Shown: positions 44,445 through 60,490 of the stretch, piece after piece
Layout: each line of letters begins with the position of its first letter
Position numbering within the stretch: position 1 is the stretch's first letter
NCBI RefSeq assembly: GCF_024362325.1
Contig: NZ_CP101497.1
Span: 2,589,679-2,653,678, forward strand
Length of the DNA: 64,000 nt
Reading direction: 5' to 3'
Origin: Microcella humidisoli
GTDB lineage: Bacteria; Actinomycetota; Actinomycetes; Actinomycetales; Microbacteriaceae
Made by a program: the position numbers and the translations under genes
The notes under the pieces: generated by a model
Seen by the model: only the letters and a program-made list of their open reading frames with translations
What the model was told of the DNA's origin: nothing
Databases searched by the model: none

Positions 44445-44500
44445 CTACTTCTTCTCTTTCGACTTCTCGACGTCGCCTGAAGTCAAGTTGAGGCTATGAA
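44445..44500 (-). mobile_element. Attachment-site copy 1 (lepA tail with phage-side arm)
   Basis: On the minus strand CATAGCCTCAACTTGACTTC is followed by AGGCGA and then an in-frame LepA-like tail, SGDVEKSKEKK, ending TAG at 44445. The GA at 44473-44474 corresponds to the central dinucleotide of the other copies. It is the outermost copy and probably carries the chromosome's own original lepA 3' end. Confidence 0.8.
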
Positions 44501-44503
44501 CAG

Positions 44504-44869
44504 TCACGGCGCGACATGTTCATCGAGCAGGAACCACACGTCCATCCGCCATCGTTCGTCAATCAGATTGAGGGTTTGCCCGACCGTTGACGGGTCGAGC
44601 AACGAGGGCCAGTCGAGGCTGCTCAAGACATCGCTGGGAAGACCAAGTCCCTCGAACTCCCGCTCCACGTCAATGTCCGGGTCTCGCGAGGTGATGCGCT
44701 CAAACTCTGCGTCTTCGACCTGGCGAAGGGCCTCTATCCACAGTTCTTGCTCTGCAGGCGAGCACTGTTCCATGAACGCGACAGCAGACTCAAGCCCGGG
44801 AATTGAATCAGGCGGCACCGACACGGTATGCACAACTCCGTCTGACGAAATCCACATAGGGCAGAGCAT
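44504..44869 (-). CDS. Cassette gene 1, acidic hypothetical protein
   Basis: 121 residues, acidic, with VGQTLNLIDERWRMDVWFLL near the C-terminus. No family recognised. It is the only gene between attachment-site copies 1 and 2, and starts 17 nt after the lepA-tail stop of copy 2. By size, charge and neighbour it could be an immunity-type protein, but that is a guess. Confidence 0.6.
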   Translation of the reverse strand: MLCPMWISSDGVVHTVSVPPDSIPGLESAVAFMEQCSPAEQELWIEALRQVEDAEFERITSRDPDIDVEREFEGLGLPSDVLSSLDWPSLLDPSTVGQTLNLIDERWRMDVWFLLDEHVAP

Positions 44870-44886
44870 GCCAGATACCAGCAGCG

Positions 44887-44944
44887 CTACTTTTTGTCCT
44901 TCTTGGCCGACTCCGTGTCGCCTGAAGTCAAATTGAGGCTATGA
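44887..44944 (-). mobile_element. Attachment-site copy 2
   Basis: Minus strand: CATAGCCTCAATTTGACTTC, AGGCGA, then a LepA-like tail SGDTESAKKDKK ending TAG at 44887. The GA is at 44918-44919. The tail differs from copy 3 at six positions in 31 nt, all synonymous. Confidence 0.85.
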
Positions 44945-44960
44945 AAGTCGCGACAACCCG

Positions 44961-45419
44961 TCATGTGATGTTGATTCCAGCAATCGGCGTGCCGGGCGGC
45001 AGATTCCGGGTCTGCTCGTGAATTTGTCCGTAGAGGTTCACTGACACAACCATGTCGGACACCTCCACGTTGTCAGCGGAAAGCGGGCCCCCGAGCATTG
45101 GCGGCACAGTGAAAGACAGAATCTCGTCTTCACCGGGATGGAGGTTGAGACCGGTTGCGGCGGTGGCCAGCTCAACCATCAAGTAATTGTCTTGTCCATC
45201 CCGAGTGTTGAGGGCGGCCTGAAGCTCCGCACCTGAGGACCAGTCGCGAGTAAGGTTCCCGCCCACAATGTCGAGGAACCACCATCCGTCCTCTGACTCA
45301 AAGAAGATGTCACCAAACGGAGAACTCAAGGAAGGCTTCTTCCCCGCCAGGTCGAGAAACGCCCATGATTCGAGCGCACGTGCGTACTGCTCCCCGGTGA
45401 ACCGTCGCATCAACTCCAC
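44961..45419 (-). CDS. Cassette gene 2, DUF1851/Tdi1-type immunity-like protein
   Basis: 152 residues. FGDIFFESEDGWWFLDIVGG followed by the C-terminal block FTVPPMLGGPLSADNVEVSD and GQIHEQTRNLPPGTPI match the DUF1851 (T6SS immunity Tdi1) family. Such proteins protect against ADP-ribosylating toxins in known cases. No toxin gene is adjacent. It is the sole gene between copies 2 and 3, starting 13 nt after the copy-3 tail stop. Confidence 0.8.
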   Translation of the reverse strand: MELMRRFTGEQYARALESWAFLDLAGKKPSLSSPFGDIFFESEDGWWFLDIVGGNLTRDWSSGAELQAALNTRDGQDNYLMVELATAATGLNLHPGEDEILSFTVPPMLGGPLSADNVEVSDMVVSVNLYGQIHEQTRNLPPGTPIAGINIT

Positions 45420-45432
45420 GAGTTGAGGATAC

Positions 45433-45492
45433 TTACTTCTTATCCTTTTTTGCGGACTCCGTGTCCCCTGAGAGTCAAATGGGGCAATGAAC
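45433..45492 (-). mobile_element. Attachment-site copy 3 (attR of the 15-kb element)
   Basis: Minus strand: CATTGCCCCATTTGACTCTC, AGGGGA, then an in-frame LepA tail LSGDTESAKKDKK ending TAA at 45433. The central GA is 45464-45465. The phage-side arm CATTGCCCC is the exact inverse of GGGGCAATG at the lepA junction (60456-60464), which identifies the two ends of one element. Confidence 0.88.
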
Positions 45493-45504
45493 GAGGTGTA
45501 GTGG

Positions 45505-46068
45505 TCAAAGCCTCTGGAGCGCTCGGTACAGCGTCGCCGGGCTGACCTTCACCATCTCAGCGACCTCGGCGCGCGTGTAGTCACCACTGGCTACCAGCTT
45601 ACGTATGCGCTCCTGTGTCTTGTCATCGATCTTCGAAGGTCGACCGCCGACCCTGCCCTTGGCTTTCGCAGCAAGGAGGCCAGCGCGAGTGCGCTCCACA
45701 ATTGTGTCGCGCTCAAGTTGGGCGAAGGCGGTCATGATGGTCAACATTGCCTCGCCCATGGGACCGGAGGTGCTGATGCCCTCGGTGAGGCTTCGAAAGG
45801 TTGCGCCTTTCGCCTTGATGGTGGCGATGAGATCGAGCACGTTGCGAGTGTTGCGCCCGAGTCGATCGAGCTTCCAGACCACGACTTCGTCGCCCTCGTC
45901 CAGACGGTCGAGGAGAGCGTCCAGACGCGGGCGGCTGGCGAGAGTGCCAGAAACACCTTCATCGGCATAAACGTACTTCTCAGCAATGCCAGCAGCGGCG
46001 AGCGCATCACGCTGAAGGGCCGCATTCTGGTCGTTGGTGCTGGTGCGGATGTACGCGAAGGTTGTCAT
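45505..46068 (-). CDS. Small serine resolvase/invertase
   Basis: 187 residues. The catalytic domain begins TTFAYIRTSTNDQNAALQRD (Ser nucleophile at residue 10), then DEGVSGTLASRPRLDALLD, EVVVWKLDRLGRNTRNVLDL and AFAQLERDTIVERTRAG, with a C-terminal helix-turn-helix (YTRAEVAEMVKVSPATLYRA). This is the Pin/Tn3 class, not an integrase. It lies at the inner edge of the element, next to copy 3. The start is ATG at 46066-46068. Confidence 0.93.
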   Translation of the reverse strand: MTTFAYIRTSTNDQNAALQRDALAAAGIAEKYVYADEGVSGTLASRPRLDALLDRLDEGDEVVVWKLDRLGRNTRNVLDLIATIKAKGATFRSLTEGISTSGPMGEAMLTIMTAFAQLERDTIVERTRAGLLAAKAKGRVGGRPSKIDDKTQERIRKLVASGDYTRAEVAEMVKVSPATLYRALQRL

Positions 46069-46090
46069 CGCTCTAGTATCGCATAACTCA

Positions 46091-46130
46091 ACTCTCATAT
46101 CGAGGGGAATTGCGATATAGTTTTGAGAGT
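46091..46130. promoter_or_regulatory. Inverted repeat upstream of the resolvase (res-like or operator)
   Basis: ACTCTCA-TATCG at 46091-46102 faces CGATA and TGAGAGT at 46113-46130. The arms pair with a 6-nt internal asymmetry. It lies 23 nt upstream of the resolvase start in AT-rich DNA. Resolvases act at sites beside their own gene, so it is a candidate crossover or control site. Confidence 0.45.
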
Positions 46131-46288
46131 CCTTTCGGTATCTGATGTCTTGAGTCGCGTGTCTCTCACTGGACCATCCTTTTCGAGACATCTGCCTCGA
46201 GGTTCTCCGTCGCTCCGGAGAGGTTAGGGATGAGTTCCTGCGTCTAGTTGGGTGATCGTGGAGCTAGCAGCGCGGTTACCCTCGGCTC

Positions 46289-46765
46289 ATGGAGACTGAT
46301 ATGAGTTTGGTGGTTAGGCCCCGTAGGCCTGCTGATGTGCTTGAGGTGGTCAGTTGGATCGCAAGTGCAAAGGTTCTCTACTCTTTCTCCGGTGCGCGTC
46401 TGCAGTGGCCGCTCACGTCCATTCAGCTGGAGAACTTGACGCACACGGAAGGGCTCTCTCCTTTCGTTGTCGTCGGCTCAGCAGACCGGCTCGTCGGGCA
46501 TTTTGATCTCAGAGTGGATGAGCGAGTGGCTTGGTTGGGCAGGGTTGCAGTGAAGCCGGAATTCCAGGGCCGCGGACTGGCGATCGAAGTGGTCAATGCC
46601 GCTCTCGTGCAGGCCCAAGAGCTGGGCGCAGACGCTGTTCGACTGCGTGTCATTGCGACGAACGAACCGGCAATCCGCACGTATCTTCGCGCAGGTTTCG
46701 CAACTGGCTTGCCCGATCCAGAGCGCCCCAGCGTGCTCTTGATGGAACGTAGTCTGCTTCGCTAA
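46289..46765 (+). CDS. GNAT acetyltransferase
   Basis: 158 residues. VRPRRPADVLEVVSWIAS opens the domain and the acetyl-CoA loop VAVKPEFQGRGLAIEVVNAAL carries the Q/RxxGxG/A motif, with VIATNEPAIRTYLRAGF near the end. The substrate is unknown. An in-frame ATG 4 codons further in is an alternative start. Confidence 0.87.
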   Translation: METDMSLVVRPRRPADVLEVVSWIASAKVLYSFSGARLQWPLTSIQLENLTHTEGLSPFVVVGSADRLVGHFDLRVDERVAWLGRVAVKPEFQGRGLAIEVVNAALVQAQELGADAVRLRVIATNEPAIRTYLRAGFATGLPDPERPSVLLMERSLLR

Positions 46766-46894
46766 AGAATCCACCACGCTGCCTGGTCGAGTCTGTCACT
46801 AAGGAGCACTCCCGAAACCCAGGCGGTATTTCTGCGGTCATCAGACCCAGACCGTTACCCCTACTTTGCGTAGTCTCCTTCGTTAAGCTGAACT

Positions 46895-47671
46895 GTGGCA
46901 CCGACGCGGAAGAATCCTGAGGATGCGGCTCGGTTGCTCCCGGGGAGCGGGTGGGAAAAGGTTGCGTCCGGGGAATCTGACACCGACGTCTATCGACGCG
47001 ACGCTGTGTACGCGAAGGTGTGTGCCGCCGATGGGACGGTGGGCCTGGCGGAAGAGCGCGACCGGGTCCGATGGCTTGCTGAAACGGACTTCCCGGGCGC
47101 CAGGGTCCTCGATTGGATAGACAGCCAACATGGCGCCGTCCTGGTGACCTCGGCTGTGTCTGGAGTTCCGGGTTGGCAGCTCCCCTGCTCTCCGACGCTG
47201 ATGGGGAATCTAGCCGCTGCGCTTCGCTCGTTTCACGAGCTGCCCGTCGAGGGATGTCCCTTCGAACGCCGACTGGAGGATGTCCTCGGACAGGTAGAGG
47301 ACGTTGTCCGGCGCGGAGCAGTAAACCCCGACTTCCTCAGCCTCGAATGGCAACAGGTACCACCGGCGGAGCTGCTGTCACGTCTGCAAACCTCGGTGCC
47401 TGCCGTTCAAGACCTCGTGGTGTGCCATGGTGATGCCACTCTGGCGAACTTTCTGTTCGATCCTCAAACGTTGGCGTTCACCGGTGCCGTTGACGTGGGG
47501 CACCTCGGCGTAGCAGATCGATACTCCGACCTGGCGCTGACCGCGGCGCAGGTCGTCAACCATGGATGGTCGCCCAGTTCAGTCAGTTTCCTGACGATGT
47601 ATGGGCTAGACGACGCCGATGACGAGCGGCTCGTGTTCTACCTTCTCCTGGATGCGATGAGCTGGGGATGA
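46895..47671 (+). CDS. APH(3'')-like aminoglycoside phosphotransferase homologue
   Basis: 258 residues. The catalytic loop VVCHGDATLANFLFDP and the metal-binding segment VDVGHLGVADRYSDLAL are those of APH(3')/APH(3''), and CPFERRL followed by AVNPDFL, with the C-terminal LVFYLLLDAMSWG, closely follows the APH(3'')-Ib (StrA) layout as I recall it. Length matches (about 265). A streptomycin-kinase role is likely by family, but no phenotype can be read from sequence. The start is GTG at 46895. Confidence 0.82.
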   Translation: MAPTRKNPEDAARLLPGSGWEKVASGESDTDVYRRDAVYAKVCAADGTVGLAEERDRVRWLAETDFPGARVLDWIDSQHGAVLVTSAVSGVPGWQLPCSPTLMGNLAAALRSFHELPVEGCPFERRLEDVLGQVEDVVRRGAVNPDFLSLEWQQVPPAELLSRLQTSVPAVQDLVVCHGDATLANFLFDPQTLAFTGAVDVGHLGVADRYSDLALTAAQVVNHGWSPSSVSFLTMYGLDDADDERLVFYLLLDAMSWG

Positions 47672-47898
47672 ATTCCGGCCCTGGCAGCAGCGCTCTCCTC
47701 AGGCACTTGCCGTACAGCAGCGAGCTCGCCTGAAATCGCTGTAGCAGCCTGAAGTGTCTGCCTGGATTGTGACGGCTTTGAAGAGTGGACATTCCGCCGA
47801 AAAGGTAAGGCGCTTCCCCCTCAATGGTCGCTCTGACCGCAGTTCTCGCACATAGTGCGTAATCGGGTACGACACATCTAATCGCTACGATCGCCAAT
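47672..47898. other. Gap, nothing identified
   Basis: About 225 bp between the phosphotransferase and methyltransferase genes. No convincing frame, hairpin or repeat was seen. Confidence 0.5.
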
Positions 47899-48657
47899 AT
47901 GGTCATCGATCGCGCCGTGGTCGAGCGGGCGTTTGACGGTCGTGCGCACACGTACGACTTGGGCGAAATGCATCGACGACTAGCCGAGTCGGTTGCTTCC
48001 TTCGTGGACCTAGATGGCGTCCGCGACGTCCTCGACGTCGCGACCGGTACAGGCTTACTCCTTCGTGCTCTTCCTCCTGACGGGCTCCGGTTTAGTGGCA
48101 CCGACATATCCCAACGAATGCTCGACGAAGCGGTGGCTCACCTACCGGCCGCGAGCTTCCGCCGCGCAGAAGCGTCGCAGTTGCCCTTTGCGGATGCGAG
48201 CTTCGACCTCGTGACGTGCGTCTCGGCGATGCCCTACTTGGACCCGCTCGCATCCTTCGCGGAGTGGCGGCGGTTGATCCGTCCCGCGGGTCGGATCGTG
48301 ATCACTGCCTGGGAGACGGACGGCATTCCCTCCGCCGTGCTCCTGCGCACAGCCGCCCAAGAGCATGGAATCGCACTTCAAGATCCAAACGCGGCGACCG
48401 GCTCCCTGGCCGAGCTCGAGGGCATCGCTAAAGGTGCCGACCTGCGAATTCTTCGCTGCAACCGATGGAGTTATCTGGCGCAGGCGCCCGACGCGGCGGA
48501 GATGGTGAACCAGATCGCACCATTCGGTCGGACCGCGCTGAACGATGCCAGCCCGGAAGTGCGTCGCGCCGTAGAGCGCACCCTTGGCGAACTCATCAGC
48601 GAAACCCGCAGCTTCGAGCAGCACTCCTTGTTTGTGGAGCTCTCCGTCGCCCGATAA
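47899..48657 (+). CDS. SAM-dependent class I methyltransferase
   Basis: 252 residues. Motif I is VLDVATGTGLLLRALPP, then FSGTDISQRMLDEAVAHLP and LPFADASFDLVTCVSAMPYL, a UbiE/Methyltransf_11-type fold. The substrate is unknown. The start is ATG at 47899. It lies within the cargo part of the element, between an APH-like gene and a PHP gene. Confidence 0.88.
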   Translation: MVIDRAVVERAFDGRAHTYDLGEMHRRLAESVASFVDLDGVRDVLDVATGTGLLLRALPPDGLRFSGTDISQRMLDEAVAHLPAASFRRAEASQLPFADASFDLVTCVSAMPYLDPLASFAEWRRLIRPAGRIVITAWETDGIPSAVLLRTAAQEHGIALQDPNAATGSLAELEGIAKGADLRILRCNRWSYLAQAPDAAEMVNQIAPFGRTALNDASPEVRRAVERTLGELISETRSFEQHSLFVELSVAR

Positions 48658-48761
48658 GTGCGTTCAACCCGCCGTCTAGGGCGAAAACGGTCAGCGGTGC
48701 TTACCAGCTGGTGTTGCTCAAAGCACGGACAGTGCCACGAAAAGGGGTCTCGCCGCTGAGT

Positions 48762-49616
48762 TCAACGGGACCACAGGTCTTCAGGCCGAGATCCCGGACC
48801 GAAGCCGAAGGACTCGGCCATCGCAATCGCGTTAGGAAAGTTCGCGGCGAGCGCGTCCGGTCCGTGGGCATCGCTACCGAAGGACACCGCGCGCCCGCCC
48901 TCCTCCGCCCACCACTGCGGAATCCACGCCTCCAGGCGCCGAGTGTTCATCTCCAACGCGCGCCCGGAGCGCGCGATCGCTCGCATCGCCGCCCTAAAGC
49001 CTTCCTCGAACTGGCGGGGGTTGAAGGGCCCGGCGACGGCGATCGGCCACGAGCGCACGGCATAGTCGATGTGGGTGAACACCTCGAACGTGTCCGACTC
49101 CGCGACCATTCGCGGGATCTCCTCCAGATACGCCCACATGACCTCATCCGCTGGCCGGTAGCGGTACAACGTCGTTGGCTCCGTGCACTCGCCGTCTTCG
49201 AACGGGAGCATGTGGAGCGATCCGTTGACGCGGTCGATCGCGCCACTGGATAGCAATGAGGCAGCTCGCGCGTCCCACAGGTGCGGCTGCCCGAACTCGA
49301 CACCGGTGAGTATGCGAAGTTCAGGGTAGTCGTGACGGCACCGGTCAATCGCTTCGAGGTACCCGTCGGCATCGAAGGGCGGAAGTATCACGCGGCCGGT
49401 GGAATCCACGTACTTCTGCGCGTGCTCCCCGATGTCGCCTTCACCGACCCGCCAGTCGTCCGCGAAGTCAAGGTGCTCAGTGAACACGATCGCCGGCAGT
49501 CCAATCCGAATCGCCCGTTCACAGGTTCGAGCCATCGAGCCTTGCGACGCCGGATCCGATGCGTAGTCCCACGACCACTCGCTGTGGACGTGAGCGTCGG
49601 CCGTGAGCGTGGTCAT
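48762..49616 (-). CDS. PHP-domain phosphoesterase (histidinol-phosphatase-like)
   Basis: 284 residues with the PHP metal motifs in order: DAHVHSEWSWD, VFTEHLDF, FTHIDYAV and GSDAHGPDALAANF. It resembles the HisK-type histidinol phosphatases, but no other his gene is near, so the substrate is open. The ATG start overlaps the stop of the following GNAT gene by 4 bp. Confidence 0.87.
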   Translation of the reverse strand: MTTLTADAHVHSEWSWDYASDPASQGSMARTCERAIRIGLPAIVFTEHLDFADDWRVGEGDIGEHAQKYVDSTGRVILPPFDADGYLEAIDRCRHDYPELRILTGVEFGQPHLWDARAASLLSSGAIDRVNGSLHMLPFEDGECTEPTTLYRYRPADEVMWAYLEEIPRMVAESDTFEVFTHIDYAVRSWPIAVAGPFNPRQFEEGFRAAMRAIARSGRALEMNTRRLEAWIPQWWAEEGGRAVSFGSDAHGPDALAANFPNAIAMAESFGFGPGSRPEDLWSR

Positions 49617-50131
49617 CGCACCATCCGTAGTTCAACGAGGTTCGGTTCCGATGGATCGATGAACTCCGTGCCATCGACCACGAACCCGTTGCGCTGGTAA
49701 AACGCGATCGCTCGATGATTGCCACGAAGGACCCAAAGTTGCGCCGGATGGTCGCCGAGTACCGCGTCGAGCATCAATTGACCGAGGCCGCTGCCGTGGG
49801 CACCTACCAGCATGTAGATCGAGAACAAGTGCAGCGATCGAACGGGTGGGAACCCATGCTCGGCGTCAGGTCCGCGCGCCTCGCCAGAGTTCGCGAAGCC
49901 CACCAGAACTCCAGCATGTTCCGCGACCACCATGCGCCCCGGACGCGGATCAATGGATAGGTAACTAGTCCAAAACTGCTCACGTTTGCGAAAAACTTCC
50001 TCAGAGAACTGACGAGCTTCGAGCACGCCCGAGTAGGTCTCCCGCCATGCGTCGACGTGCACCCGAGCAATTTTCTCGGCATCAGAAGCCACCGCGTCGC
50101 GCACCCGGTGGCTATTCACGCTACCCATCAC
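49613..50131 (-). CDS. GNAT acetyltransferase
   Basis: 172 residues. VRDAVASDAEKIARVHVDAWRE at the start, then the conserved part SIYMLVGAHGSGLGQLMLDAV and YQRNGFVVDG. It is probably co-translated with the PHP protein. Substrate unknown. ATG at 50129-50131, with a second ATG directly after. Confidence 0.85.
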   Translation of the reverse strand: MMGSVNSHRVRDAVASDAEKIARVHVDAWRETYSGVLEARQFSEEVFRKREQFWTSYLSIDPRPGRMVVAEHAGVLVGFANSGEARGPDAEHGFPPVRSLHLFSIYMLVGAHGSGLGQLMLDAVLGDHPAQLWVLRGNHRAIAFYQRNGFVVDGTEFIDPSEPNLVELRMVR

Positions 50132-50314
50132 ACGAGGCTACTGGGCGTGTTTGCTGCGGGATCGGATATCTGTCCCGCTGGGCGTGTGGCGTCGTGTCAT
50201 GCCGGTTCTCCCATCTGGGCGAGCTGGGTTGCACCCGTCAGCTCCTCGACGTAGTTGTTCCTGCCATCACAAAGACCACATCGGCCTGTTTGCCTGTGTC
50301 GCTAGCATTCTGGA

Positions 50315-51064
50315 GTGACCCGTCGAAAATCGGCACTACTTACCGGTGCGGGGCGAGCGTCGAGCATCGCCCATGGAATCGCGAAGACGCTCGCCGACGA
50401 CGGTTGGAATCTTGCTCTCACCACCTGGTCGCCGTATGACCTCGGAGCGGACTTCGGTGGCGGCGCGAGCGACGTCGACGAGCTCGAAGCGAGCCTGACT
50501 AGAGCGGGCGCACTCGTCGTGCGCATTGAAGCGGACCTCAGCGACCCGGCGGCACCGGCGGAAGTTGTTGCCCGCGCCGCCCGAGCCCTCGACGGTCTAG
50601 ACGCCCTCGTCCTCTCCCACTCCCACAGCGTGGACTCATCAATCCTCGATACCAGTCTGGAAAGCTTTGATAGACACTTCGCCGTCAACTCTCGCGCAGC
50701 ATGGTTGCTCATCAAAGCTTTCGCAGAACTCGGGCAAGAGTGGGGGCGCATTGTCGCTCTCACAAGCGATGCCGTGGTTCACAACGTTCCCTACGGCGCG
50801 AGCAAAGGTGCTTTGGACCGCATTATTCTCGCGGCTGCCGGAGAGCTCGGTTCACAGGGAATCACTGCCAATCTCATCAATCCGGGCCCGATCGACACGG
50901 GCTGGATGACAGACGACATCCGTGCTGCCTTGACGGATCGGCAGCCCACGGGCCGCCTTGGCAGCCCGGCCGACACCGCCAACCTCGTCCGATTCCTGCT
51001 CTCCGACGAAGGCGGCTGGGTGACAGGGCAACTGCTAAAGAGCGATGGCGGCTTCTCAATTTGA
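50315..51064 (+). CDS. Short-chain dehydrogenase/reductase
   Basis: 249 residues. The Rossmann start is SALLTGAGRASSIAHGIAKTL. The catalytic region has ALTSDAVVHNVPYGASKGALD (Ser, Tyr and Lys of the YxxxK motif), and INPGPIDTGWM follows. The end reads LLKSDGGFSI. The substrate is unknown. The GTG start has GGAG directly upstream with very short spacing. Confidence 0.9.
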   Translation: MTRRKSALLTGAGRASSIAHGIAKTLADDGWNLALTTWSPYDLGADFGGGASDVDELEASLTRAGALVVRIEADLSDPAAPAEVVARAARALDGLDALVLSHSHSVDSSILDTSLESFDRHFAVNSRAAWLLIKAFAELGQEWGRIVALTSDAVVHNVPYGASKGALDRIILAAAGELGSQGITANLINPGPIDTGWMTDDIRAALTDRQPTGRLGSPADTANLVRFLLSDEGGWVTGQLLKSDGGFSI

Positions 51065-51248
51065 CTGCGACGACCCTGCGAGAGAGTAGTAGGTTCGCGG
51101 AACCCCGGGCTCGAGCGCACGTCACACGCTGGAAGGCTCTGGCCTTGCAAGGGCGAGCACGCGCATCGTTGTGTCTGGTTCCTCACTGGTTCGATCACTG
51201 CCCTCGCAACGCCTTTGTTCGAGAACTTGGGCCGCGGAGCACGACCAC
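51065..51248. other. Gap, nothing identified
   Basis: About 185 bp between convergent genes. No strong hairpin or coding frame was seen. Confidence 0.5.
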
Positions 51249-51809
51249 TCAGGGTTGAGTGTTCAACTGAAGGATCAGCGCCTTCTCGTTCTCGGTCAGA
51301 TCAGACAGTGCGAGCACGTCTTGTAGCACCCCCGACTTCCCGGCGATATAGGTCGTGATGTCCATATCGGGGACGCGGGACAACGCTGTTTTCACCGCGC
51401 CGTACCTGTCGCGCAGATCGGATCGCTGGCGGAGCACTTCCCGGACTGCCAAGTGGTTCCGGAGATGCAGTGTTCCCTCCACGCAGATATAGACGTTTCG
51501 ACGCGGTTGGCTGTCGGGCGCATCCATTGCTTCTCGATCTGTAATGCCCAGGTCGCCACGGTGCACGTAGCCGGCTTGAGCGAGTGCTGCGATCGCCAGG
51601 CCAACGTGTTGCCGCTCCACGACGATATCGATGTCGAGGACGGGCTTTGCCGCTAGCCCGGGTACAGCTGTGGAGCCCACGTGTTCGATCGACAAAAAGG
51701 GAACCGCTTCGAGGGCTCGTTGCAGTTCGTTTGCAACGGCCCCGAACTGGGCGGGCCAATCCACGGAGTAGGGCACGACGTCAACCGACACGGCGGAATT
51801 GTTGCACAA
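51249..51809 (-). CDS. GrpB-family (nucleotidyltransferase-fold) protein
   Basis: 186 residues. VVPYSVDWPAQFGAVANELQ followed by IEHVGSTAVPGLAAKPVLDI is the GrpB/UPF0157 signature, with HLRNHLAVREVLR further on. The fold is that of nucleotidyltransferases; activity is generally unknown. ATG at 51809. Confidence 0.87.
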   Translation of the reverse strand: MCNNSAVSVDVVPYSVDWPAQFGAVANELQRALEAVPFLSIEHVGSTAVPGLAAKPVLDIDIVVERQHVGLAIAALAQAGYVHRGDLGITDREAMDAPDSQPRRNVYICVEGTLHLRNHLAVREVLRQRSDLRDRYGAVKTALSRVPDMDITTYIAGKSGVLQDVLALSDLTENEKALILQLNTQP

Positions 51810-53380: not shown

Positions 53381-53659
53381 CGCGTAGCGTATGGGGGCAT
53401 CATCGGCCGACGATGCCGATTTGACGGTCCGGTGTCGATGGGCGAACTCGAGTACGGGGCGACTTGACTTCGCAGCCACCCTCTGCGGCTTCGCGAGGGT
53501 GAGGTGTGTGGTCGAAGTCCGGCAGCCTCCCTGCGGTCGCGGCGGCGGCCTGGTCGGGTTCACGCGCGTAATTGGCCTCGTCCTGCTGTAGCGGGCGTGG
53601 AATGAAGAGAACCTCAGTGGGCATCGCGGTCAACAAACCTGACGCGCCATACTCGACTA
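53381..53659. other. Gap, nothing identified
   Basis: About 280 bp. Short frames here have no ribosome site or family match. No clear hairpin. Confidence 0.5.
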
Positions 53660-54211
53660 ATGGCAAGCAAGTCTCTGGCTGAGTTGGGGCCGGTATGTAT
53701 CGTGATCACGGGCATGCCTGGCGCCGGTAAGTCGACGGTCGCCGAACTTGTTGCCATGGGCCTGCCGAGGTCGATGATGCTCAGCGGTGACGCTGTTGCG
53801 GCCATGATCGTGGGTGGTCGAGTGTGGGCGCTCGGCTCGCCTCGTCACGAAGCTTTGGCCCAAATCGAGTTGATCAACAGGAACTTGGCAGCGCTCGCCA
53901 GGAACGCGACCGAGGCGGGATTCACGGCTGTAATTGAGACTGTGCTTCCGGATCGCGCCGAGTTTGACGCCCTTACCTCATCGCTGGCCTGTGACGTCCT
54001 GCTGATTGTTCTCTCGCCTGGAATCGAAGTTTGTCGAGCCAGGAACGCCACTCGCGCGAACGATCAACGGTGGGAGTTCGATGGCTATGAAGCACTCGAA
54101 GCGGAGATGCTCGATAACTTTCGCGACTCCGCATGGTGGTTTGACACGGCACAACTTGGCCCCTCGGAGACGGCCGAGCGAATCATCAGCGAAGCACACA
54201 CCCGACTTTGA
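53660..54211 (+). CDS. P-loop kinase-like protein (AAA/zeta-like)
   Basis: 183 residues. The Walker A motif is VITGMPGAGKSTVAELVAMG, and VIETVLPDRAEFDAL and LLIVLSPGIEVCRARNATR follow, as in small-molecule kinases of the Cpt/zeta group. The substrate is unknown. The size and single domain suggest an antibiotic- or nucleoside-type phosphotransferase, but this is open. Confidence 0.75.
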   Translation: MASKSLAELGPVCIVITGMPGAGKSTVAELVAMGLPRSMMLSGDAVAAMIVGGRVWALGSPRHEALAQIELINRNLAALARNATEAGFTAVIETVLPDRAEFDALTSSLACDVLLIVLSPGIEVCRARNATRANDQRWEFDGYEALEAEMLDNFRDSAWWFDTAQLGPSETAERIISEAHTRL

Positions 54212-54354
54212 TCGGGTCGGTGGGGTCGAATTTTCACGGACGGGTCGAGCGCGCCTGCCTGGCAGTGCGCGGCGACACAACTTCCAGGTCCAAGTTCAGG
54301 CTCGACAGACAGATCGGCTACTCAGGCTTCCCCTCGTCAGGACCAGTTTGAGCG

Positions 54355-54966
54355 TTACCTCCCTGTACTCGAAGCCCCCGAATTGTCTGCCCTCGGGGAG
54401 CGACCTTGCGCCATTCGTTGACTCGATCGCTGCATGGAGAGACGCACCGACTCGTGGTTGCGCTCGAATCGAATTGCGTCCGAGCGTGAGATGCCGACCT
54501 GCTCGGCGGCGTTTTCTGCGTCGATCTCACCGCCGAGGAACGTGAACTGCCAACCATCCGCCTCGCGAGCTCGAACGATCTGGCGAATCGCACTCGCGGT
54601 GTACTCGGAGCTGGAAGTATCCTGCCCGTCAGTGACGATCACGACCTGAACGACAGCCGGCCGCGCATGCTCAGGCTGCGACTGAAGATGCCGATGGAAG
54701 TCAAATAGTGCTGCGCCGAGGGTATCGAACAGCGCGGTGCCTCCTCGCGGCTCAAGCTTGAGCTGCACCTGCGCCGGATCTGCCAGATGATGTGTGCGCT
54801 TTGCTTCATGGTCAAACAGCACCACGTCTACAGTGCTCAGCCCGGGAAGGTGTGCTTGTTCCCTCAGTAGCTTCGAGACTGCGTCACTCATCGCTTCAGC
54901 GATCGGTGCCATGGACCCGGATCGATCGATCACGAGAAGAAGGGCTGTGTATTTCTGGTCGCTCAA
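54355..54966 (-). CDS. von Willebrand factor A domain protein
   Basis: 203 residues. The MIDAS metal site is LLVIDRSGSMAPI, with the Thr in RGGTALFDTLG and the Asp in VIVTDGQDTSS. I chose the TTG at 54964-54966, because the preceding GAGG is well spaced and homologous proteins start SDQKYTALL; a TTG six codons upstream is the alternative. Function unknown; solitary VWA proteins of this type occur in mobile regions. Confidence 0.82.
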   Translation of the reverse strand: MSDQKYTALLLVIDRSGSMAPIAEAMSDAVSKLLREQAHLPGLSTVDVVLFDHEAKRTHHLADPAQVQLKLEPRGGTALFDTLGAALFDFHRHLQSQPEHARPAVVQVVIVTDGQDTSSSEYTASAIRQIVRAREADGWQFTFLGGEIDAENAAEQVGISRSDAIRFERNHESVRLSMQRSSQRMAQGRSPRADNSGASSTGR

Positions 54967-55555
54967 AACTAGACCTCGCTTCAATGGTTAAGGGGTCAAT
55001 TTTAACAGCGACACCTGTCTTTCGTACATTGGCCACCTGATTCGGACTTTGACCTCTAGGACCACTTGACGGCTGAGAGCCCATTTCTGTACATGGAAAA
55101 AGACCCCCAAATGTTTCCATGTCCCGATAGATGCCGGCCGGAATTTCACGATCGACTGTCTGGCCTCGTAGTGCTGCTCAGGGGGTCCAAAAATCGAATC
55201 ACTTTTCGGAGCTCAACGTGTCCCCTGGAAACCCGCGGGCTTGCTGGGTTTGCATTATGGGGCGGACTGTCAGACGTCAGTCTCTGTTCGAATAGTGGTC
55301 TTGACTGGGTGGAATGATGGTTGCGTGGGGGTCCTTCTTCGTCTTGAGAATTTGCCCGACTAAGCGCGCTATTCCTTCGATCCGGCCAGAGAGCTAGCAA
55401 GCGTAGCCACATCGTTTCGATTCATCCGACTGGCTTACAGCTCGCATTCTTTTTGGCTGCGCCGGGCTTCATGCACTGGGAACCTTCCCCAGTTTCGGGG
55501 CTATTTATCTCAGCACAACCCTTAGTTTTCCCGTCTCTTATGAGACTATAAGTTA

Positions 55556-55667: not shown

Positions 55668-55777
55668 GCCGTCAAACATGGACAAAACCAATAATATGCT
55701 ACAAAGAGAGCACTTCTCAGTAATATGTCATAATTGACTTCAGATGACCTTGCAATCATTATTGATTATCAAAAGTT

Positions 55778-55821
55778 CCCCTCTGAACGTGGCTTGCAAG
55801 GTCACACGTTCAGGGGGGTTT
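55778..55821 (+). terminator. Hairpin just before the PrimPol gene (terminator or attenuator)
   Basis: CTGAACGTG (55783-55791) pairs with CACGTTCAG (55805-55813), and CCCC outside it pairs with GGGG past one bulged T, followed by GGTTTA. It lies 17 nt before the start codon, where it could insulate or attenuate expression. Confidence 0.5.
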
Positions 55822-55838
55822 ACTCGTTGGAGAAACAA

Positions 55839-57845
55839 ATGTCGGACCGACTAGATAGCCCTGGAGAGCACCTCCAGGGAGTAGACAAAGCCCTTGCTTG
55901 GGCTGCACTCGGATTGCGGGTACACCCTGTCCGAGAGAAGGACTCGTGGAGCGGAGACAAGCTCTTCGAGCGAAAGACTCCGTATCTGACTCGGGGTCTG
56001 ACGGATGCCATCACGAACCCGGAAGGCATCCGGGCTTGGTGGGCGGCACAGCCTGACGCTCTAGTGGGCGTCGTAGCTGACAGCACCGTCTGTGTCCTCG
56101 ATATCGACATGAACGCTGAAAAGGGCAAGGACGGATGGAACAGCCTGGTTGAGGCGGACCTGTCTGAGTTGCCCGACACTTTCAGCTACAAGACCAGCTC
56201 AGGCGGTGAGCATCACGTTTACCGTCACCCTCACGATGTGGAGTTGGGTCCTGCGGCTCCTGTGGTCATCTCTACTGGTGAGGTGTTGACGGACGTGGAC
56301 CGTCGAGCGGGACGTTCTTACTTCATTGCCTGGGGTGACTCGGTGCCGACATCACTAGACGAGCTGGCTCCAGCTCCAGAGTGGTTGTGCGTGCCGTCAA
56401 GCTCGATGTCTGAGTCTCCCTTCCACGGCTCTATTGCCGACTGGGTTAGGACTCTGCGTCCCGTCACTTCATACGAGGTCAGTGCTGCCAAGGTTCGATT
56501 CCCTAGGGGAGAGTTCGGTCATGACGAGATGATTCAGCGTCAGGCTGAGTTGGTGCGTCTCGCTGCTGAGGGGAAGGGTGGAGTAGCTGGGGCTTTGGAC
56601 CTGTTGCGTGCCCGTTGGCTTCAGGGTGAGTTCAATACGCCTGAGTATGCGGATGACTTTGACCGGTCTCTAGCTGGAGCCGTGCGCAAATTCGGGGGAA
56701 CTGGTGAGCCTGACTCTCCTGAGGTTGTTGAGGCCATGACTGACGAGTTGGCTAACGACTACTACATAAAGCTCAAGGCTCAACAGAAGGCTAAGCGTCG
56801 GCTTGCTTCCGAGAATTTCACCGGTACCGAATTCCCGAGCTGGGAAGAGATGGAAGCTGCTTCTCAGACCTTCCTCATTGAGGACCTCGTGCCTGAACAG
56901 GGCATGGTCTTCCTCATTGCCAAGCGCAACATTGGAAAGACGTTCCTCTACATTGACGCTATTTGCTCCATGGCTTTCGGGATGCGCTGGCTGGGTAAAG
57001 AGACCAAGCAGACCAAAACCATGGTGGTCATCGGTGAGGGATTCAACGGCTACGTTGACCGTCTGAAGGCGTGGTGTGAAGCTCACGGGGAGGACTTCGA
57101 AGAGCTGAAGAAGTGGGTCATTCCGGTACGCGGAGCGAATCTGAATAACGAGACGTCTCTTGAGCTTCTGCGTGAGAAGGCCAACGCTGAAGAGGTGGGT
57201 CTCATCATCTTTGACACGTTCGCCAACACGAGCGGTGGGACTGACGAGAATGACGCTGCCTTGAACAGCATGACGTTGGAGGCGGCTGTTGCGATTCGTG
57301 CTGAGGCCACCACTTGGTTCATTCACCACCCGCGTAGGAGTGACCAGGACACAGATGCTCCAATTGCCAGAGGCTCGGGAGCGCTCGATGGTAGAGCGGA
57401 CGTTGTGCTCACTATGTACCGAGACAAGAGCTTCAGTCCTACCAGCGGTTCAAAGCAGGAGTGGCTAGCGGTCTCCACTGAGGAAGACCACGCGGGCAAG
57501 AACCGTTCCGCCCGCACGGAGACCATCAGAGGTCTCTACTTGAATGAGGTTTCAGAGAATGCGGTGATGCGTCAGGTTGCCGGTGAAGGACTTTCTAAGC
57601 GTGTGCGTCGTGTGCGGGAGAAGCTTTCCGGTGTGATGACTCGGGCTGAATACCGTGACGAAACAGGTCTTAGTGAAGAAAGTGCGCGTCTTGATATTGA
57701 GGAGGCGGTAGAAGCTGGAGTGCTGGAGGTCTCGAGCGAGCGGGAGGGTCGTAAGCCAGCCACCTTCATGGTGAAGCGTCCAGTAGGCAACCACCTTGCG
57801 CTGGTCGCTTCAGTGCCTGTGCCCAAAAACGACGAAGCAGGCTAG
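55839..57845 (+). CDS. PrimPol-helicase replication protein
   Basis: 668 residues. The N-terminal primase/polymerase domain has the acidic catalytic motif VCVLDIDMNAEKGKDGW and YKTSSGGEHHVYRHP; the lead-in ALAWAALGLRVHPVRE is typical. The C-terminal RepA-like (AAA_25) ATPase has Walker A FLIAKRNIGKTFLYID and Walker B GLIIFDTFANTSGGTDEND, and a winged-helix end (MTRAEYRDETGLSEESARLD) follows. It likely primes and unwinds the excised element. I chose the ATG at 55839, with TTGGAG upstream. Codon use is less GC-rich than the core. Confidence 0.85.
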   Translation: MSDRLDSPGEHLQGVDKALAWAALGLRVHPVREKDSWSGDKLFERKTPYLTRGLTDAITNPEGIRAWWAAQPDALVGVVADSTVCVLDIDMNAEKGKDGWNSLVEADLSELPDTFSYKTSSGGEHHVYRHPHDVELGPAAPVVISTGEVLTDVDRRAGRSYFIAWGDSVPTSLDELAPAPEWLCVPSSSMSESPFHGSIADWVRTLRPVTSYEVSAAKVRFPRGEFGHDEMIQRQAELVRLAAEGKGGVAGALDLLRARWLQGEFNTPEYADDFDRSLAGAVRKFGGTGEPDSPEVVEAMTDELANDYYIKLKAQQKAKRRLASENFTGTEFPSWEEMEAASQTFLIEDLVPEQGMVFLIAKRNIGKTFLYIDAICSMAFGMRWLGKETKQTKTMVVIGEGFNGYVDRLKAWCEAHGEDFEELKKWVIPVRGANLNNETSLELLREKANAEEVGLIIFDTFANTSGGTDENDAALNSMTLEAAVAIRAEATTWFIHHPRRSDQDTDAPIARGSGALDGRADVVLTMYRDKSFSPTSGSKQEWLAVSTEEDHAGKNRSARTETIRGLYLNEVSENAVMRQVAGEGLSKRVRRVREKLSGVMTRAEYRDETGLSEESARLDIEEAVEAGVLEVSSEREGRKPATFMVKRPVGNHLALVASVPVPKNDEAG

Positions 57846-57910: not shown

Positions 57911-58255
57911 TTAACGGTTCTCTGGAGCCATTCTGTAGGCGTTCGTGAGAGATTTGGAAAGTCTTCCGCGTGGATTGGCAGGGATGTTGTTGATTCGTGC
58001 CCATTCCCGCACTGCTGCGGCATCCAAGTCAGAGGCAGAGCGGATAGGCGCCGTCGTGCCTTTGGCGGGCTCAGGTTCCGCGTTCGCAATAAACGGGGTG
58101 ATTGCGTCATCAAGAGCCGTTGCGCTCTTCTCAGACAGGTCGAGGTTGTAGGTCTTCCCCTTGTAGCTGAGTGAGACCTCTACGGCTCCGCCAGAGATTT
58201 CCTCTCCAGTGAAGTCATCGGTGATGAGGGTGGTTTCAATCTTCTTCTTCGCCAT
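57911..58255 (-). CDS. Lsr2-like nucleoid protein
   Basis: 114 residues: an N-terminal dimerisation part (TLITDDFTGEEI, VSLSYKGKTYNLDLSEKSA) and a C-terminal DNA-binding part with VREWARINNIPANPRGRLSK, the Lsr2 helix and AT-hook-like RGR. Lsr2 proteins silence AT-rich foreign DNA; a copy carried by the element may control its own cargo or counter host silencing. I chose the ATG at 58255. Confidence 0.9.
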   Translation of the reverse strand: MAKKKIETTLITDDFTGEEISGGAVEVSLSYKGKTYNLDLSEKSATALDDAITPFIANAEPEPAKGTTAPIRSASDLDAAAVREWARINNIPANPRGRLSKSLTNAYRMAPENR

Positions 58256-58301
58256 GAACTCACAATATCCACGCCAATCGAAACGCGCCATGCTAACGCC
58301 C

Positions 58302-58343
58302 TGTGGAAAATATGGGGATAACTAGGTTGAACCTTGTGGATGA
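58302..58343. other. Cluster of DnaA-box-like 9-mers, possible origin
   Basis: TGTGGAAAA (58302), TGGGGATAA (58313) and TGTGGATGA (58335) each differ by one base from the DnaA box TGTGGATAA, all in the same direction within 42 bp. They lie upstream of the lsr2-like gene and near the integrase in an element that encodes its own replication protein. Confidence 0.4.
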
Positions 58344-58447
58344 ACCGGATTACACACCCTTAAATGGGCGGAAATGGGCGGAAACAAGCGCGTGTGGGCA
58401 AAGGGCAGACCGATTTGTCTAGGCTCAGTTGCGTCAGGGGCCCCGCC

Positions 58448-58547
58448 TAGAATGGTGCTGTCTTCGAATTTCGAAGGAGATTCGGGCCACACGGTTCGGG
58501 TGCAAAACAAGACGACCCCGCTGACCGGGGTGCGGTCTAGCGGGGTC
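58448..58547 (+). promoter_or_regulatory. Promoter, operator palindrome and leader hairpin
   Basis: TAGAAT (58448-58453) is a good -10. Nine nt later CTTCGAA-T-TTCGAAG (58462-58476) is a perfect 15-bp palindrome where a repressor would block start. In the leader, GACCCCGCT (58514-58522) pairs with AGCGGGGTC (58539-58547), but ACCCC can instead pair with GGGGT at 58527-58531, so two folds compete. It serves the small gene at 58628. Confidence 0.5.
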
Positions 58548-58627
58548 ACGTTCTTGGCGGAACCAGACAACACTAGCGCGGCATCCTGGATTTAGCACCA
58601 GTCGTCTTCGAGCAACGGAGCAAAAAG

Positions 58628-58792
58628 ATGAAGTTGGTTGAAGGCACTCCTGCCCCTTTCACCGGGGTCTACCGGGCGGTCACTGAGAACGGTGAGCTGC
58701 TTGACCTGTCGGTCAAGCTGTCCCGTTTCGAGCCCCTGCCCCGCGCCATTGAAGGGTCATGCTGGCAGCTCGAAAGGCTGACAGCGGCCTAG
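58628..58792 (+). CDS. Small phage-type protein, function unknown
   Basis: 54 residues (MKLVEGTPAPFTGVYRAVTE at the start, WQLERLTAA at the end), from an ATG with GGAGCAAAAAG upstream. There is no domain I know. A strong terminator follows and a promoter-operator precedes, so it is probably expressed alone. It may be a control protein such as an excision factor, but there is no direct evidence. Confidence 0.6.
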   Translation: MKLVEGTPAPFTGVYRAVTENGELLDLSVKLSRFEPLPRAIEGSCWQLERLTAA

Positions 58793-58796
58793 CGGC

Positions 58797-58840
58797 GAAC
58801 GGAAGCCCCCGGTTGAAACTGACCGGGGGCCTCTCCGTTC
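58797..58840. terminator. Bidirectional terminator between the small gene and the integrase
   Basis: AGCCCCCGGT (58804-58813) pairs with ACCGGGGGC (58822-58830), with GAACGGA outside pairing with TCCGTTC. It lies between the convergent small gene and integrase gene. Confidence 0.85.
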
Positions 58841-58844
58841 CCAG

Positions 58845-60458
58845 CTACCGAGCTTCGACCGAAATGCGGGTGTCGATTGCCCCGCGTCCCGTTGACAGCT
58901 TCACGATGAACGAGCCACGGAGAATCTCCCGCCTCTTCTCAACGGGAGTTCCTTCCCAAGCTTCGTAACCCTTTGCCCACCCAATAGCGGGCTTCCAGAA
59001 AGCAGCCCGCTGCTCAGCCGTGGATCCCTCAGCAATGGAGGCTTCGATGTCGTCGTAGTTCGGCAGACCCTGCATGTAGGCCAGGAATTCAGAGAGCGCA
59101 CCACCCTCAGCACTGAGCGCGGTGAGTCGGTCTCGTTCGATTTCGAGCGCTTCCCGCTCCCCCTTCAAGACCTTCAGCCGAGCTTTGAAAGCGGTCTGCT
59201 CGTCCACTAAGTCAGGGTCTGCAAGCAGTGCCTGAACATGCTCAATCTGACGGAACTTCTCTCCCAGGGCTGCGTAGATTGCGGTGATTCTTTCCCGGTC
59301 GTACCCGCCACCGGATACGGTCACGCGCTCTTCTGCAATGGCTTTCAGGGCTTCGTTGGTCACCCATTCGTCTGCCTCTGTGACGCGCACCGTAGCGTGC
59401 CCGCTGGTGTTGCCGGGGGTGTTCGATTTGCGGCACCGGTAGACGTGGTAGCTGTACTTGTAGACCTTCCCCTTGACCGTGCTCTTGGCACCGACAGAGC
59501 CCGCGCTCAGCGGGTTCCCGCAGGGGCAGAGCATGACACCGGAGAGAAGGTTGGTGGCTTTCTGTCCGGGCTTCTGCTTCCGGGCAGGGTTCGCTAGGAA
59601 TGCCTCCATTGCGTCGAGCCGTTCACGGCTGACGATTGCGGGGAGTCCATCGGAGGCAAGCTCTTCACCTTTGTGCGTGAGGATGCCAGCCATGCGGGGG
59701 TTGGTGAGGATGCGCTTGATTGCTTCTGTGGTGAACATGCCGTCATGTTCGACTCGTTCCCGGCCACCGGTCCCCCGCTTCTTGCTGGAGCGGCCTGCGT
59801 CCGTCGTTTTGTGCCCGCGTGCGTTCCAGTCCCGAGCAACCTTGTAGAGCGTCCAGGGGGCCTGCTGACGGTCTTCCGGTGACAGGGTGTCGGGTGCGTC
59901 GAGCATGCGGCTGTAGGCGGTTCTGATTAGCTCAGCTTCGTCTGTGCGGAGCGTGAGCCTGTCGGTCTCGAAGCCAAAGACGCGGTTGCCTACGAGCGGC
60001 AGACCCAGGTTGAGTCGGTCGTTGACGCTGCGTCGAGCGCGCTCAGCCTTCAGACCGGACTCCAGCTCTGCAAGGGCTGCGAACAGAGCTGCGTTGAATG
60101 CGCCGGTTGCAGTGGTCGGGTCGATTTCTCCGGTGGCCAGGGTGTGCCAGCGGACCTTGGCTTGGATGCTTGCGCGGCGGATTGCGAAGCTTTCCACGTC
60201 GTTGCGTGCGAGTCGGTCCACAGCTACTGCAAGCACAAGGTCTGTGCGTCCGTCTTCGATGGTCAGCAGCAGGTCACGAAAGCCGGGGCGTTGTTTTCCG
60301 GAGTAGCCAGATATGTCGTTGTCTGAGTGCTCAGCAACGATTTCAGCGCCAAGCTTGGCAGCGAGAGCCCGCAGGTTCTCTAGCTGATTCTCGACAGACG
60401 GAATGTTTGCGTCCTCTTGGGAGATACGCGCGTACAGGGCAGCACGAGGTGTTTTCAT
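58845..60458 (-). CDS. Large serine integrase
   Basis: 537 residues. The catalytic domain opens [15 protein letters not shown] (Ser nucleophile at residue 13), with [14 protein letters not shown]. The recombinase domain follows ([40 protein letters not shown]), then a zinc ribbon ([11 protein letters not shown] with YRCRKSN) and a coiled-coil region near 430-480. It joins attP to attB in the lepA 3' end. The ATG at 60456-60458 overlaps the lepA stop (ATGA), so after insertion it can be read from the lepA transcript. Confidence 0.95.
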
Positions 60459-60490
60459 TGCCCCTTTTTAGTCTCGACATCGCCCGAGAG
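60455..60490 (-). mobile_element. attL: lepA/integrase junction
   Basis: On the minus strand the lepA codons run GCGCTCTCGGGC, then the central GA (60480-60481), then element DNA TGTCGAGACTAAAAAGGGGC and AATG. GGGGCAATG mirrors CATTGCCCC of copy 3. The arms sit exactly 15 nt from the GA on each side when the two ends are joined. Confidence 0.85.

Follow-up and report, generated by a model that had tools for sequence, protein, structure and literature searches.

A mobile element and two single-gene units marked off by scars that carry spare lepA endings: a favoured reading of the locus behind lepA in Microcella humidisoli

The window analysed here is a stretch of 64,000 nucleotides from Microcella humidisoli (NZ_CP101497.1, positions 2,589,679 to 2,653,678), in which an integrase, cargo genes and two small open reading frames lie between lepA and its usual downstream neighbour, a DUF1990 gene (Table 1). 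A DUF1990 or HbpS-like gene is found no more than 150 bp from the lepA stop in 21 of 24 congeners. The G+C content per kb is 0.51–0.65 from 44 to 60 kb of the window versus 0.66–0.74 in the flanks.

Table 1. Features of the lepA locus, in window positions
Feature	Positions	Strand	Description
lepA	60455..62326	-	Single copy apart from contig-end overlap; end supplied by element arm
lepA-side junction	60456..60481	-	B half, GA 60480-60481, 24-nt arm 60456-60479, TGTCGAG..GGGGCAATG
Large serine integrase, 537 aa	58845..60458	-	Resolvase, Recombinase, Zn_ribbon_recom (Pfam); phrog_95 integrase, 4.9e-81
Lsr2-like protein	57911..58291	-	Resident element
Prim-Pol + AAA_25 replication-type protein	55734..57845	+	Resident element
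Cargo	46289..54984	.	Two GNAT, APH-domain, methyltransferase, PHP, SDR, GrpB, PIN, AAA_33, VWA
Small resolvase/invertase	45505..46191	-	Ends 15 nt before c3 arm
c3 junction	45433..45489	-	Arm 45466-45489 (CATTGCCCCATTTGACTCTCAGGG), GA 45464-45465, tail 45433-45465, DTESAKKDKK and stop
152-aa ORF	44961..45419	-	Between c3 and c2; T6SS_Tdi1_C immunity domain
c2 junction	44887..44943	-	Arm 44920-44943 (CATAGCCTCAATTTGACTTCAGGC), GA 44918-44919, tail 44887-44919, DTESAKKDKK and stop
121-aa ORF	44504..44869	-	Flanked by c2 and c1; no Pfam match
c1 junction	44445..44498	-	Arm 44475-44498 (CATAGCCTCAACTTGACTTCAGGC), GA 44473-44474, tail 44445-44474, DVEKSKEKK and stop
DUF1990 gene	43910..44434	-	Usual neighbour downstream of lepA

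The Resolvase, Recombinase and zinc ribbon domains of the integrase all scored above their curated cut-offs, the zinc ribbon narrowly so (26.1 versus 25.3 bits). Scores against the XisF and Ccr models were all far below the cut-offs (32.8, 46.6 and 29.2 bits for CcrA, CcrB and CcrC, against 700, 900 and 900). Comparison with known phages (151 records) and plasmids (41 records) gave identities below 60% throughout, and the protein is far from described integrases, with one 75% relative (P0002, a 5.7-kb contig) and the next at 33% over 58% of the length. The cargo also includes a 270-aa protein with no Pfam match. A scan of 17 proteins encoded by the composite gave no match to a conjugation family, and no directionality factor was identified.

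Translated in all six frames, the window contains exactly four matches to SGD[VTAIS][ED], which are the four copies of the lepA tail that an earlier note on this DNA had reported, one in lepA itself and three at the distal end (c3, c2 and c1). The base-exact anatomy likewise confirms the structure proposed there for the distal copies, each of which begins with an element arm, here 24 nt long, continues with GA at the centre and closes with a LepA tail that is in frame and has its own stop. At the lepA-side junction, the lepA codons after the GA come from the right arm of the resident element, the protein ends in DVETKKGQ, and the ATG of the integrase overlaps the lepA stop. No other LepA ending in DVETKKGQ was found among the 120 LepA proteins listed; 106 of these 120 have a DVETKK end, and the named ones are nearly all from Microbacterium.

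Repeat family D1 (58 nt) is made up of the three distal copies; measured against the c2 reference, the other two are 72% and 76% identical. It is listed first and is the longest among the 18 families of direct repeats found in the 16.3-kb region 44300-60600. The arm pattern CATWGCCYCA-N0-4-TTGAC has three matches in the 2.65-Mb genome, all at this locus, and its reversed control has none. Chance repetition as the source of the copies was rejected on these pattern counts, the rank of the repeat family and the junction statistics. The contig carries an untrimmed 15.5-kb end overlap, which raises the question of an assembly artefact; this is extremely improbable, since the overlap begins at 48488, away from all three copies, agrees to 99.97% and repeats the lepA–integrase junction, whereas c1, c2 and c3 are merely 72–76% alike.

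The distal arms are of two types, c1 and c2 being identical at 23 of 24 positions and c3 matching them at 14 and 15 of 24, respectively. Against the lepA-side arm, the c3 arm shows 17 of 24 mirror matches, a value equalled by 0 of 20,000 shuffles, compared with 12 of 24 for c2 (shuffle fraction 0.014) and 11 of 24 for c1 (0.035). By arm symmetry, only c3 is predicted to be the partner of the resident integrase and the lepA-side junction. The resident element is predicted to span about 15 kb between these two junctions, swapping the LepA end for an arm-encoded tail, and its putative attP to be 50 bp long (24 + GA + 24, with GA at the centre). A site of about 50 bp that is near-symmetric around a 2-bp centre is what is expected of a large serine integrase attP, and the 24 + GA + 24 arrangement with 17 of 24 mirror matches has this form. 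Two half sites, as in an attB, are also present, and the lepA ends of the 24 congeners are unsplit. Both the predicted attP and the attB in lepA lend themselves to direct testing. No partner for the c1/c2 arm type was found in the window. Resemblance of the arms to the left half of the lepA site (9–10 of 24 alike, shuffle fractions 0.08–0.11) was unsupported.

That the tails are leftover right-hand arms of related attP sites was also considered and rejected, as the expected GAGGCTATG is missing from the 24 nt after the GA in c2 and c3. This 9-mer occurs in the window solely as the complement of the c1 and c2 arms, and for these two reasons the c2 and c3 tails are lepA halves. As had been proposed, the junctions have the look of attachment sites at which related serine-integrase elements joined the lepA 3′ end.

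Junctions c2 and c3 encode one peptide, DTESAKKDKK, and c1 encodes DVEKSKEKK; nucleotide identities between the tails are 18/36 (c1–c2), 17/36 (c1–c3) and 26/36 (c2–c3). All six nucleotide differences between the c2 and c3 tails are synonymous, which was matched in 1 of 200,000 random trials, and these tails therefore diverged as working lepA ends. Together with the in-frame peptides, these synonymous-only differences and the DNA matches of the c2 tail in other host-family genomes, which include lepA ends (L101, L106, L113 and L114, 80–83%), substantiate the earlier view that the tails are lepA homologues.

The lepA tail is highly variable even inside the genus. DTESAKKDKK was absent from the 24 congeners, from 57 readable host-family lepA loci and from the best 120 of 8000 scored LepA proteins, where the closest endings were DTEAAKKDKK and DTEGAKKDKK. 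Since none of the 24 congeners has this peptide, c2 and c3 may well be junctions that arose in other hosts, and we infer a foreign host for their tails because no genome was found whose lepA ends in DTESAKKDKK. Of the three distal sites, c1 alone runs on into the native DUF1990 flank, and it is counted as native for this reason; the c1 tail and flank (44435-44480) are 91% identical over 46 bp to the empty site of genome G019. The exact c1 peptide was found in 0 of 24 congeners, and DVEKAKEKK in 7. Judged by these peptides, two endings are unlike this bacterium's own, and the stack may be a record of hosts in which the element resided earlier.

Three arm–tail hybrids in a row are not the product of a single simple insertion, a point on which our analysis agrees with the earlier note. 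Its claim of repeated entry is supported as far as junctions of related serine-integrase elements, with two arm types, are concerned; the support does not extend to repeated entry into this chromosome, as the c2/c3 tail is absent from the 24 congeners. Serial independent insertions into this chromosome would have each older element lose the integrase and the left-hand arm, which make up its left part, when homologous recombination put the lepA end of a different species in their place, the site thereby being renewed for the next element. Such a course would account for the three junctions, for the missing c1/c2 partner arms in the window and for the non-congener tails of c2 and c3, and LepA is well conserved and might recombine (last 134 aa 97–99% identical in 16 of 24 congeners and 88–90% in 7, with one partial). 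It is nonetheless rather unlikely: two replacements are needed, each stopping 13–17 nt before a small gene, from donors with the same tail peptide, and the tail is very variable inside the genus, with no such donor found.

The units between the distal sites measure 546 bp (c3 to c2) and 445 bp (c2 to c1) and contain one main ORF each, codirectional with lepA. With the start codons of the longest ORFs, the 152-aa ORF is separated from its bounding sites by 13 and 17 nt, and the 121-aa ORF by 17 and 5 nt. The 152-aa protein matches PF08906 at 3e-7 (30.7 bits, cut-off 27.4), and a PDB sequence search with it gave nothing significant. Homologues of the 121-aa protein were found at 27–34% identity in 6 other genomes (259 searched), and no toxin gene was recognised by eye beside them among the matches listed. 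Structure predictions of the two proteins were poor (pLDDT 59 and 36). The near-identity of the c1 and c2 arms (23/24) could suggest that a single insertion took place and its distal end was then duplicated locally in tandem; this is very improbable given that the tails differ (17/36 to 26/36 identical) and that the spacer genes look unrelated, with a Pfam match in the 152-aa one alone and homologues of the two found in different genomes.

Neither unit ORF is a recombinase. Integrase-less units that keep att-like junctions, and serial copies of the target gene end that each follow an element-side motif, are features of tandem accretion of the SCC or ssrA-island kind, and both are present here. 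The regular order of tail, one gene and arm, codirectional with lepA, and the divergence of the tails under protein-level constraint would also suit integron-like lepA cassettes, in which single-gene circles with an arm–tail hybrid site insert directly at lepA, provide it with a new tail and push the old one outward. For this, an attR-type site would have to recombine with attB, against the report, in the part of PMC3783163 drawn on here, that serine integrases recombine only attP with attB unless helped, and it draws on two units in one genome, so that we consider it distinctly unlikely. That lepA anchors a serine-integrase gene-cassette system, in which a portable lepA ending, maintained by selection, accompanies each single gene on its travels, is a tentative and rather unlikely suggestion; if it were true, each visit would leave a gene in the lepA operon, restore lepA and renew the site, and former hosts could be read off from the series of foreign endings.

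Searches for comparable arrays were carried out in related genomes. A second tail of the form G[DE][VTAI]E..K-stop was found in none of the 57 host-family loci with a readable lepA end (64 minus 7 in which no lepA motif was found, probably because the stretch is cut or the motif differs), and the case that the earlier note had named as contrary to its reading, tail copies in genomes lacking an integrase, was not seen there. Nor was there a second tail within ~1.5 kb in 43 loci with a readable lepA end, a set in which the own locus is counted twice and 1.5 kb falls short of c3. A looser tail pattern applied to the lepA-to-DUF1990 stretch of 16 loci, a set without L141, which also has a gap before DUF1990, gave one possible relic (L124); matches in L123 (two) and L127 (one) were implausible. 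The arm pattern is present in 19 of 398 host-family genomes, own included, and is followed by a LepA tail in none of the 18 others. In viral contigs, the c1/c2 arm had no match, and a shorter core arm pattern had 26, none with a LepA tail. Integrase relatives were found in 31 of the 398 host-family genomes (E ≤ 1e-20) and in 3 of 26 genomes of the genus (1e-10), own included in both counts. Of 35 integrase loci tested, with flanks of ~1.5 kb for genome loci, only the own locus (L063) has lepA in its flanks and the 34 others do not, nor do two weaker loci from the genus (L213 and L214). The genomes sampled yielded no second array.

We favour reading the locus behind lepA as a mobile element with two tiny units of one gene each lined up after it, the boundaries being scars that hold a spare lepA ending. 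It probably arose by accretion of serine-integrase elements at lepA, of the CIME or SCC kind, with composite circles carrying the tails of older hosts. The lepA-side junction would recombine with a distal junction, giving a circle that picks up the inner junctions and the lepA tail of an earlier host, and this composite circle would integrate at the 3′ end of the next lepA by serine-integrase site-specific recombination. The integrase part alone could later exit via an inner junction, leaving behind foreign tail, gene and arm next to an intact lepA that offers a fresh attachment site. The trailing integrase-less units are each bounded by an arm–GA–tail junction of a related, different arm type, and the integrase would have to accept both arm types. 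For this chromosome, strictly one entry is required, at c1, by a composite circle already carrying c2 and c3; that last integration would need a hybrid attP of the c1 arm and the resident right arm, with the weaker mirror match (11/24). Canonical steps alone leave the origin of the first tail-bounded integrase-less unit unexplained. No intermediate of the accretion model was found among the loci surveyed. If the reading is right, such rows would be natural travel logs of mobile elements, and they would show how an element can deposit one gene at a time downstream of a housekeeping gene, which is repaired on each occasion.

A literature search gave no report of a serine-integrase island at the 3′ end of lepA; stacked att sites at gene ends are already known, and those described here lie in a protein gene. 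SCC and SCCmec elements use serine recombinases at the 3′ end of rlmH, a conserved gene; their att sites are stacked and some members lack an integrase, and the lepA locus resembles them in each of these respects. It differs in its integrase (46.6 bits on CcrB, cut-off 900), in that no CcrA/CcrB pair was identified and in its separate small resolvase. In CIME accretion of ICESt1-type elements, integrase-less att-bearing units are mobilised in cis by a neighbour, and the units described here likewise keep att sites without an integrase. ICESt1-type elements have a tyrosine integrase and a conjugative partner, whereas the integrase here is a serine one, with no conjugation family among the 17 composite proteins scanned. 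Integrons comprise the IntI tyrosine integrase, attI and folded attC sites, and the serine integrase sets the locus apart from them.

Among systems compared from parts of published accounts, PAISt at bacA of Streptomyces is similar in that an internal att repeat permits modular exit from the 3′ end of an actinobacterial gene; as described in that part, it differs in its tyrosine recombinase, 8-bp palindrome and lack of stacked tails (PMC4057263). The rAID arrays of Bacteroidales, in the portion of the source used, share a recombinase with codirectional short genes, one of them immunity-like here, and a conserved intergenic motif between them; rAIDs combine a tyrosine recombinase with an orphan immunity gene array, whereas the lepA locus has a serine recombinase and two genes, one with an immunity domain, and falls outside that class (PMC12247911). 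The Dehalococcoides ssrA islands, in the sections drawn on, are a precedent for stacked units that include ones without an integration module. Both systems have a serine recombinase of ~540 aa and a second, small one, and both integrate where a single-copy essential gene ends (3′); direct repeats of that end occur in series, each behind an element-side motif, and some units have no integration module (PMC3146451). Compared with what those sections describe, the locus presented here has two arm types, units down to one gene and a non-congener tail peptide, and its target is the protein gene lepA rather than the ssrA RNA gene (PMC3146451). Because the tails sit in a protein gene, the displaced endings can be read as peptides and compared with the host's own, and their selection history can be measured.

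The four copies of the lepA ending that the earlier note had described were all located, one in lepA itself and three at distal sites (c1, c2 and c3), where extra LepA tails sit 15–16 kb beyond the lepA end and rank first and longest among the direct-repeat families of the region. The arm pattern of these sites was absent from the rest of the genome in a whole-genome pattern search and was found in 19 of 398 Microbacteriaceae genomes, its own included, with no LepA tail following it in any of the other 18. The genome is one contig of 2,653,678 bp, with the window as its final 64 kb, and positions 48488–64000 are duplicated at the contig start (L038, 1–15511; 99.97% identity). This duplication is an untrimmed circular assembly, and lepA is single copy despite giving two matches, because the contig end repeats the start. 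The seeming second copies of lepA and the integrase both fall in this overlap.

Positions of the lepA ending, its distal copies and associated reading frames (window positions unless a locus is given)
Feature	Position	Strand or direction	Remarks
lepA	end at 60455	minus	stop overlapped by the integrase ATG
c3 LepA tail	45433-45465	minus	24-nt arm before it, GA at junction
c2 LepA tail	44887-44919	minus	24-nt arm before it, GA at junction
c1 LepA tail	44445-44474	minus	24-nt arm before it, GA at junction
152-aa ORF	between c3 and c2	lepA direction	T6SS_Tdi1_C immunity domain; sole main ORF
121-aa ORF	between c2 and c1	lepA direction	sole main ORF of unit
G018 insert between lepA and DUF1990	L124 4680-5840		ORFs of 195 aa and 148 aa; short lepA-like end

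Arms of one element should join into a near-symmetric attP, and each distal arm was paired on this basis with the lepA-side arm (60456–60479). The c3 pair gives 24 nt, GA and 24 nt with 17 of 24 mirror matches, a score reached by 0 of 20000 shuffles, and its nine outer bases are mirrored perfectly (CATTGCCCC/GGGGCAATG); the c2 and c1 arms gave 12/24 and 11/24 (shuffle fractions 0.014 and 0.035). This near symmetry argues that the resident element most likely spans the lepA junction to c3. The c1 and c2 arms agree at 23 of 24 positions, and c3 agrees with c1 at 14 and with c2 at 15. Right-hand partners expected for the c1 and c2 arms were not found in the window. A genome search at E ≤ 1e-10 gave no second integrase of the resident kind, its two matches being one gene seen twice.

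The resident element carries 9 kb of cargo between framing genes for a 537-aa serine integrase, an Lsr2-like protein, a Prim-Pol/AAA_25 protein and a small resolvase, and no capsid or conjugation family was matched among 17 proteins scanned from the composite (the resident element plus the two single-gene units before the native flank). The cargo includes an APH-domain phosphotransferase (46895–47668), named from its domain match alone, and the small resolvase/invertase (45505–46191) adjoins c3. The closest relative of the integrase has 75% identity and lies on a 5.7-kb contig, probably from a metagenome, followed by one at 33% over 58% of the length; lepA was in the flanks of none of 34 other integrase loci and neither of two weaker loci in the genus. 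The lepA ending encoded by the resident right arm, DVETKKGQ, is close to DVETKK, found in 106 of the best 120 LepA proteins listed (those named are nearly all Microbacterium), which suggests that the arm mimics a LepA ending.

When lepA–DUF1990 loci were compared, as the earlier note had envisaged, the lepA tail continued unsplit up to the stop in 24 of 24 congeners read, and no second array of stacked tails was found in the genomes searched. A DUF1990 or HbpS-like gene lies ≤150 bp past the lepA stop in 21 of the 24, and DUF1990 lies within that distance in 41 of 57 family loci. The c1 tail is best read as the displaced native lepA tail, because c1 with its flank (44435–44480) matches the empty site of another genome, G019 (91% identity over 46 bp) and DUF1990 comes after it. 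Its exact peptide, DVEKSKEKK, occurs in no congener, the nearest being DVEKAKEKK (7/24). The c2 and c3 tails encode one peptide, DTESAKKDKK, which was absent from all 24 congeners, from all 57 family loci and, as a query, from the best 120 LepA proteins listed; DTEAAKKDKK, DTEGAKKDKK and DTESAKKK were nearest among the matches listed. From this absence in the native set, both tails appear foreign to the host. Elsewhere in the family, the matches to c2 tail DNA comprise, among others, lepA ends (80–83%; L101, L106, L113 and L114), though with E-values of about 0.001–0.004 for one genome. The two tails differ at 6 of 33 positions, stop codon counted, all synonymous, an outcome reached by six random changes in 1 of 200,000 trials (a rough figure, under uniform substitution), and this argues that they diverged while each mostly served as a working lepA end.

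The 121-aa protein has no match in Pfam, NCBIfam, PADLOC or PHROG, and its ORF is likely a real gene because a search of 259 genomes gave homologues (27–34%) in six others. For the 152-aa protein, 259 family genomes yielded a single further relative (42% over 55 residues), and the reading of this protein as an orphan immunity protein is a lead. By eye, that relative (L216, G111) lies next to what seem to be repeated small paralogues, which may form an immunity array. The gaps around the ORFs are short (13 and 17 nt for the 152-aa ORF, 17 and 5 nt for the 121-aa ORF) and, with the shared direction, suggest that both genes could have been read from lepA before the resident element came.

Each arm–tail junction must have arisen by recombination at a site ending in that tail. 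The state before the resident element must have been lepA with tail c3 ahead of the 152-aa gene, preceded by lepA with tail c2 ahead of the 121-aa gene and, earliest, by native lepA. These successive states need not all belong to the present cell; a single insertion of a composite circle (c1 arm plus resident right arm) would yield the present structure. Such circles would form if a distal junction were used by the integrase together with a directionality factor, and subsequent loss of the resident part through c3 would leave behind tail, gene and arm with lepA intact. The earlier note had proposed repeated entry of the locus; for this chromosome, one composite insertion would suffice. The steps would match standard serine-integrase logic, for which normal site pairings are outlined in PMC3783163, with two exceptions: how a unit without an integrase first originated, and that both arms are tolerated.

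The lepA–DUF1990 interval accepts other insertions, since G009 (L123) carries 15 kb there, by eye apparent sugar metabolism and transport genes, with no relative of the resident integrase. In G018 (L124), another genome of the genus, intact lepA is followed by a 1.15-kb insert with two ORFs, AAGAAGAAGTAA and the native flank; at best, this is possibly an eroded relic or unit of the same kind, with no recognisable arm.

In SCC elements, copies of a gene end recur in series with an element-side motif, alongside units that lack an integrase. The same plan, with a CcrB-like serine recombinase, is outlined for the Dehalococcoides ssrA islands (PMC3146451), and the lepA case fits it; its small resolvase may be compared with the second small serine recombinase of those islands. 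Modular exit through an internal att repeat is described for PAISt in Streptomyces (PMC4057263), and in rAID arrays, as outlined in PMC12247911, a recombinase is joined with immunity genes that run in one direction and have a conserved motif between them. Relative to the plan of the ssrA and SCC islands, the lepA case differs in target, unit size and its two arm types, and its endings are readable as peptides, which permits comparison with those of the host.
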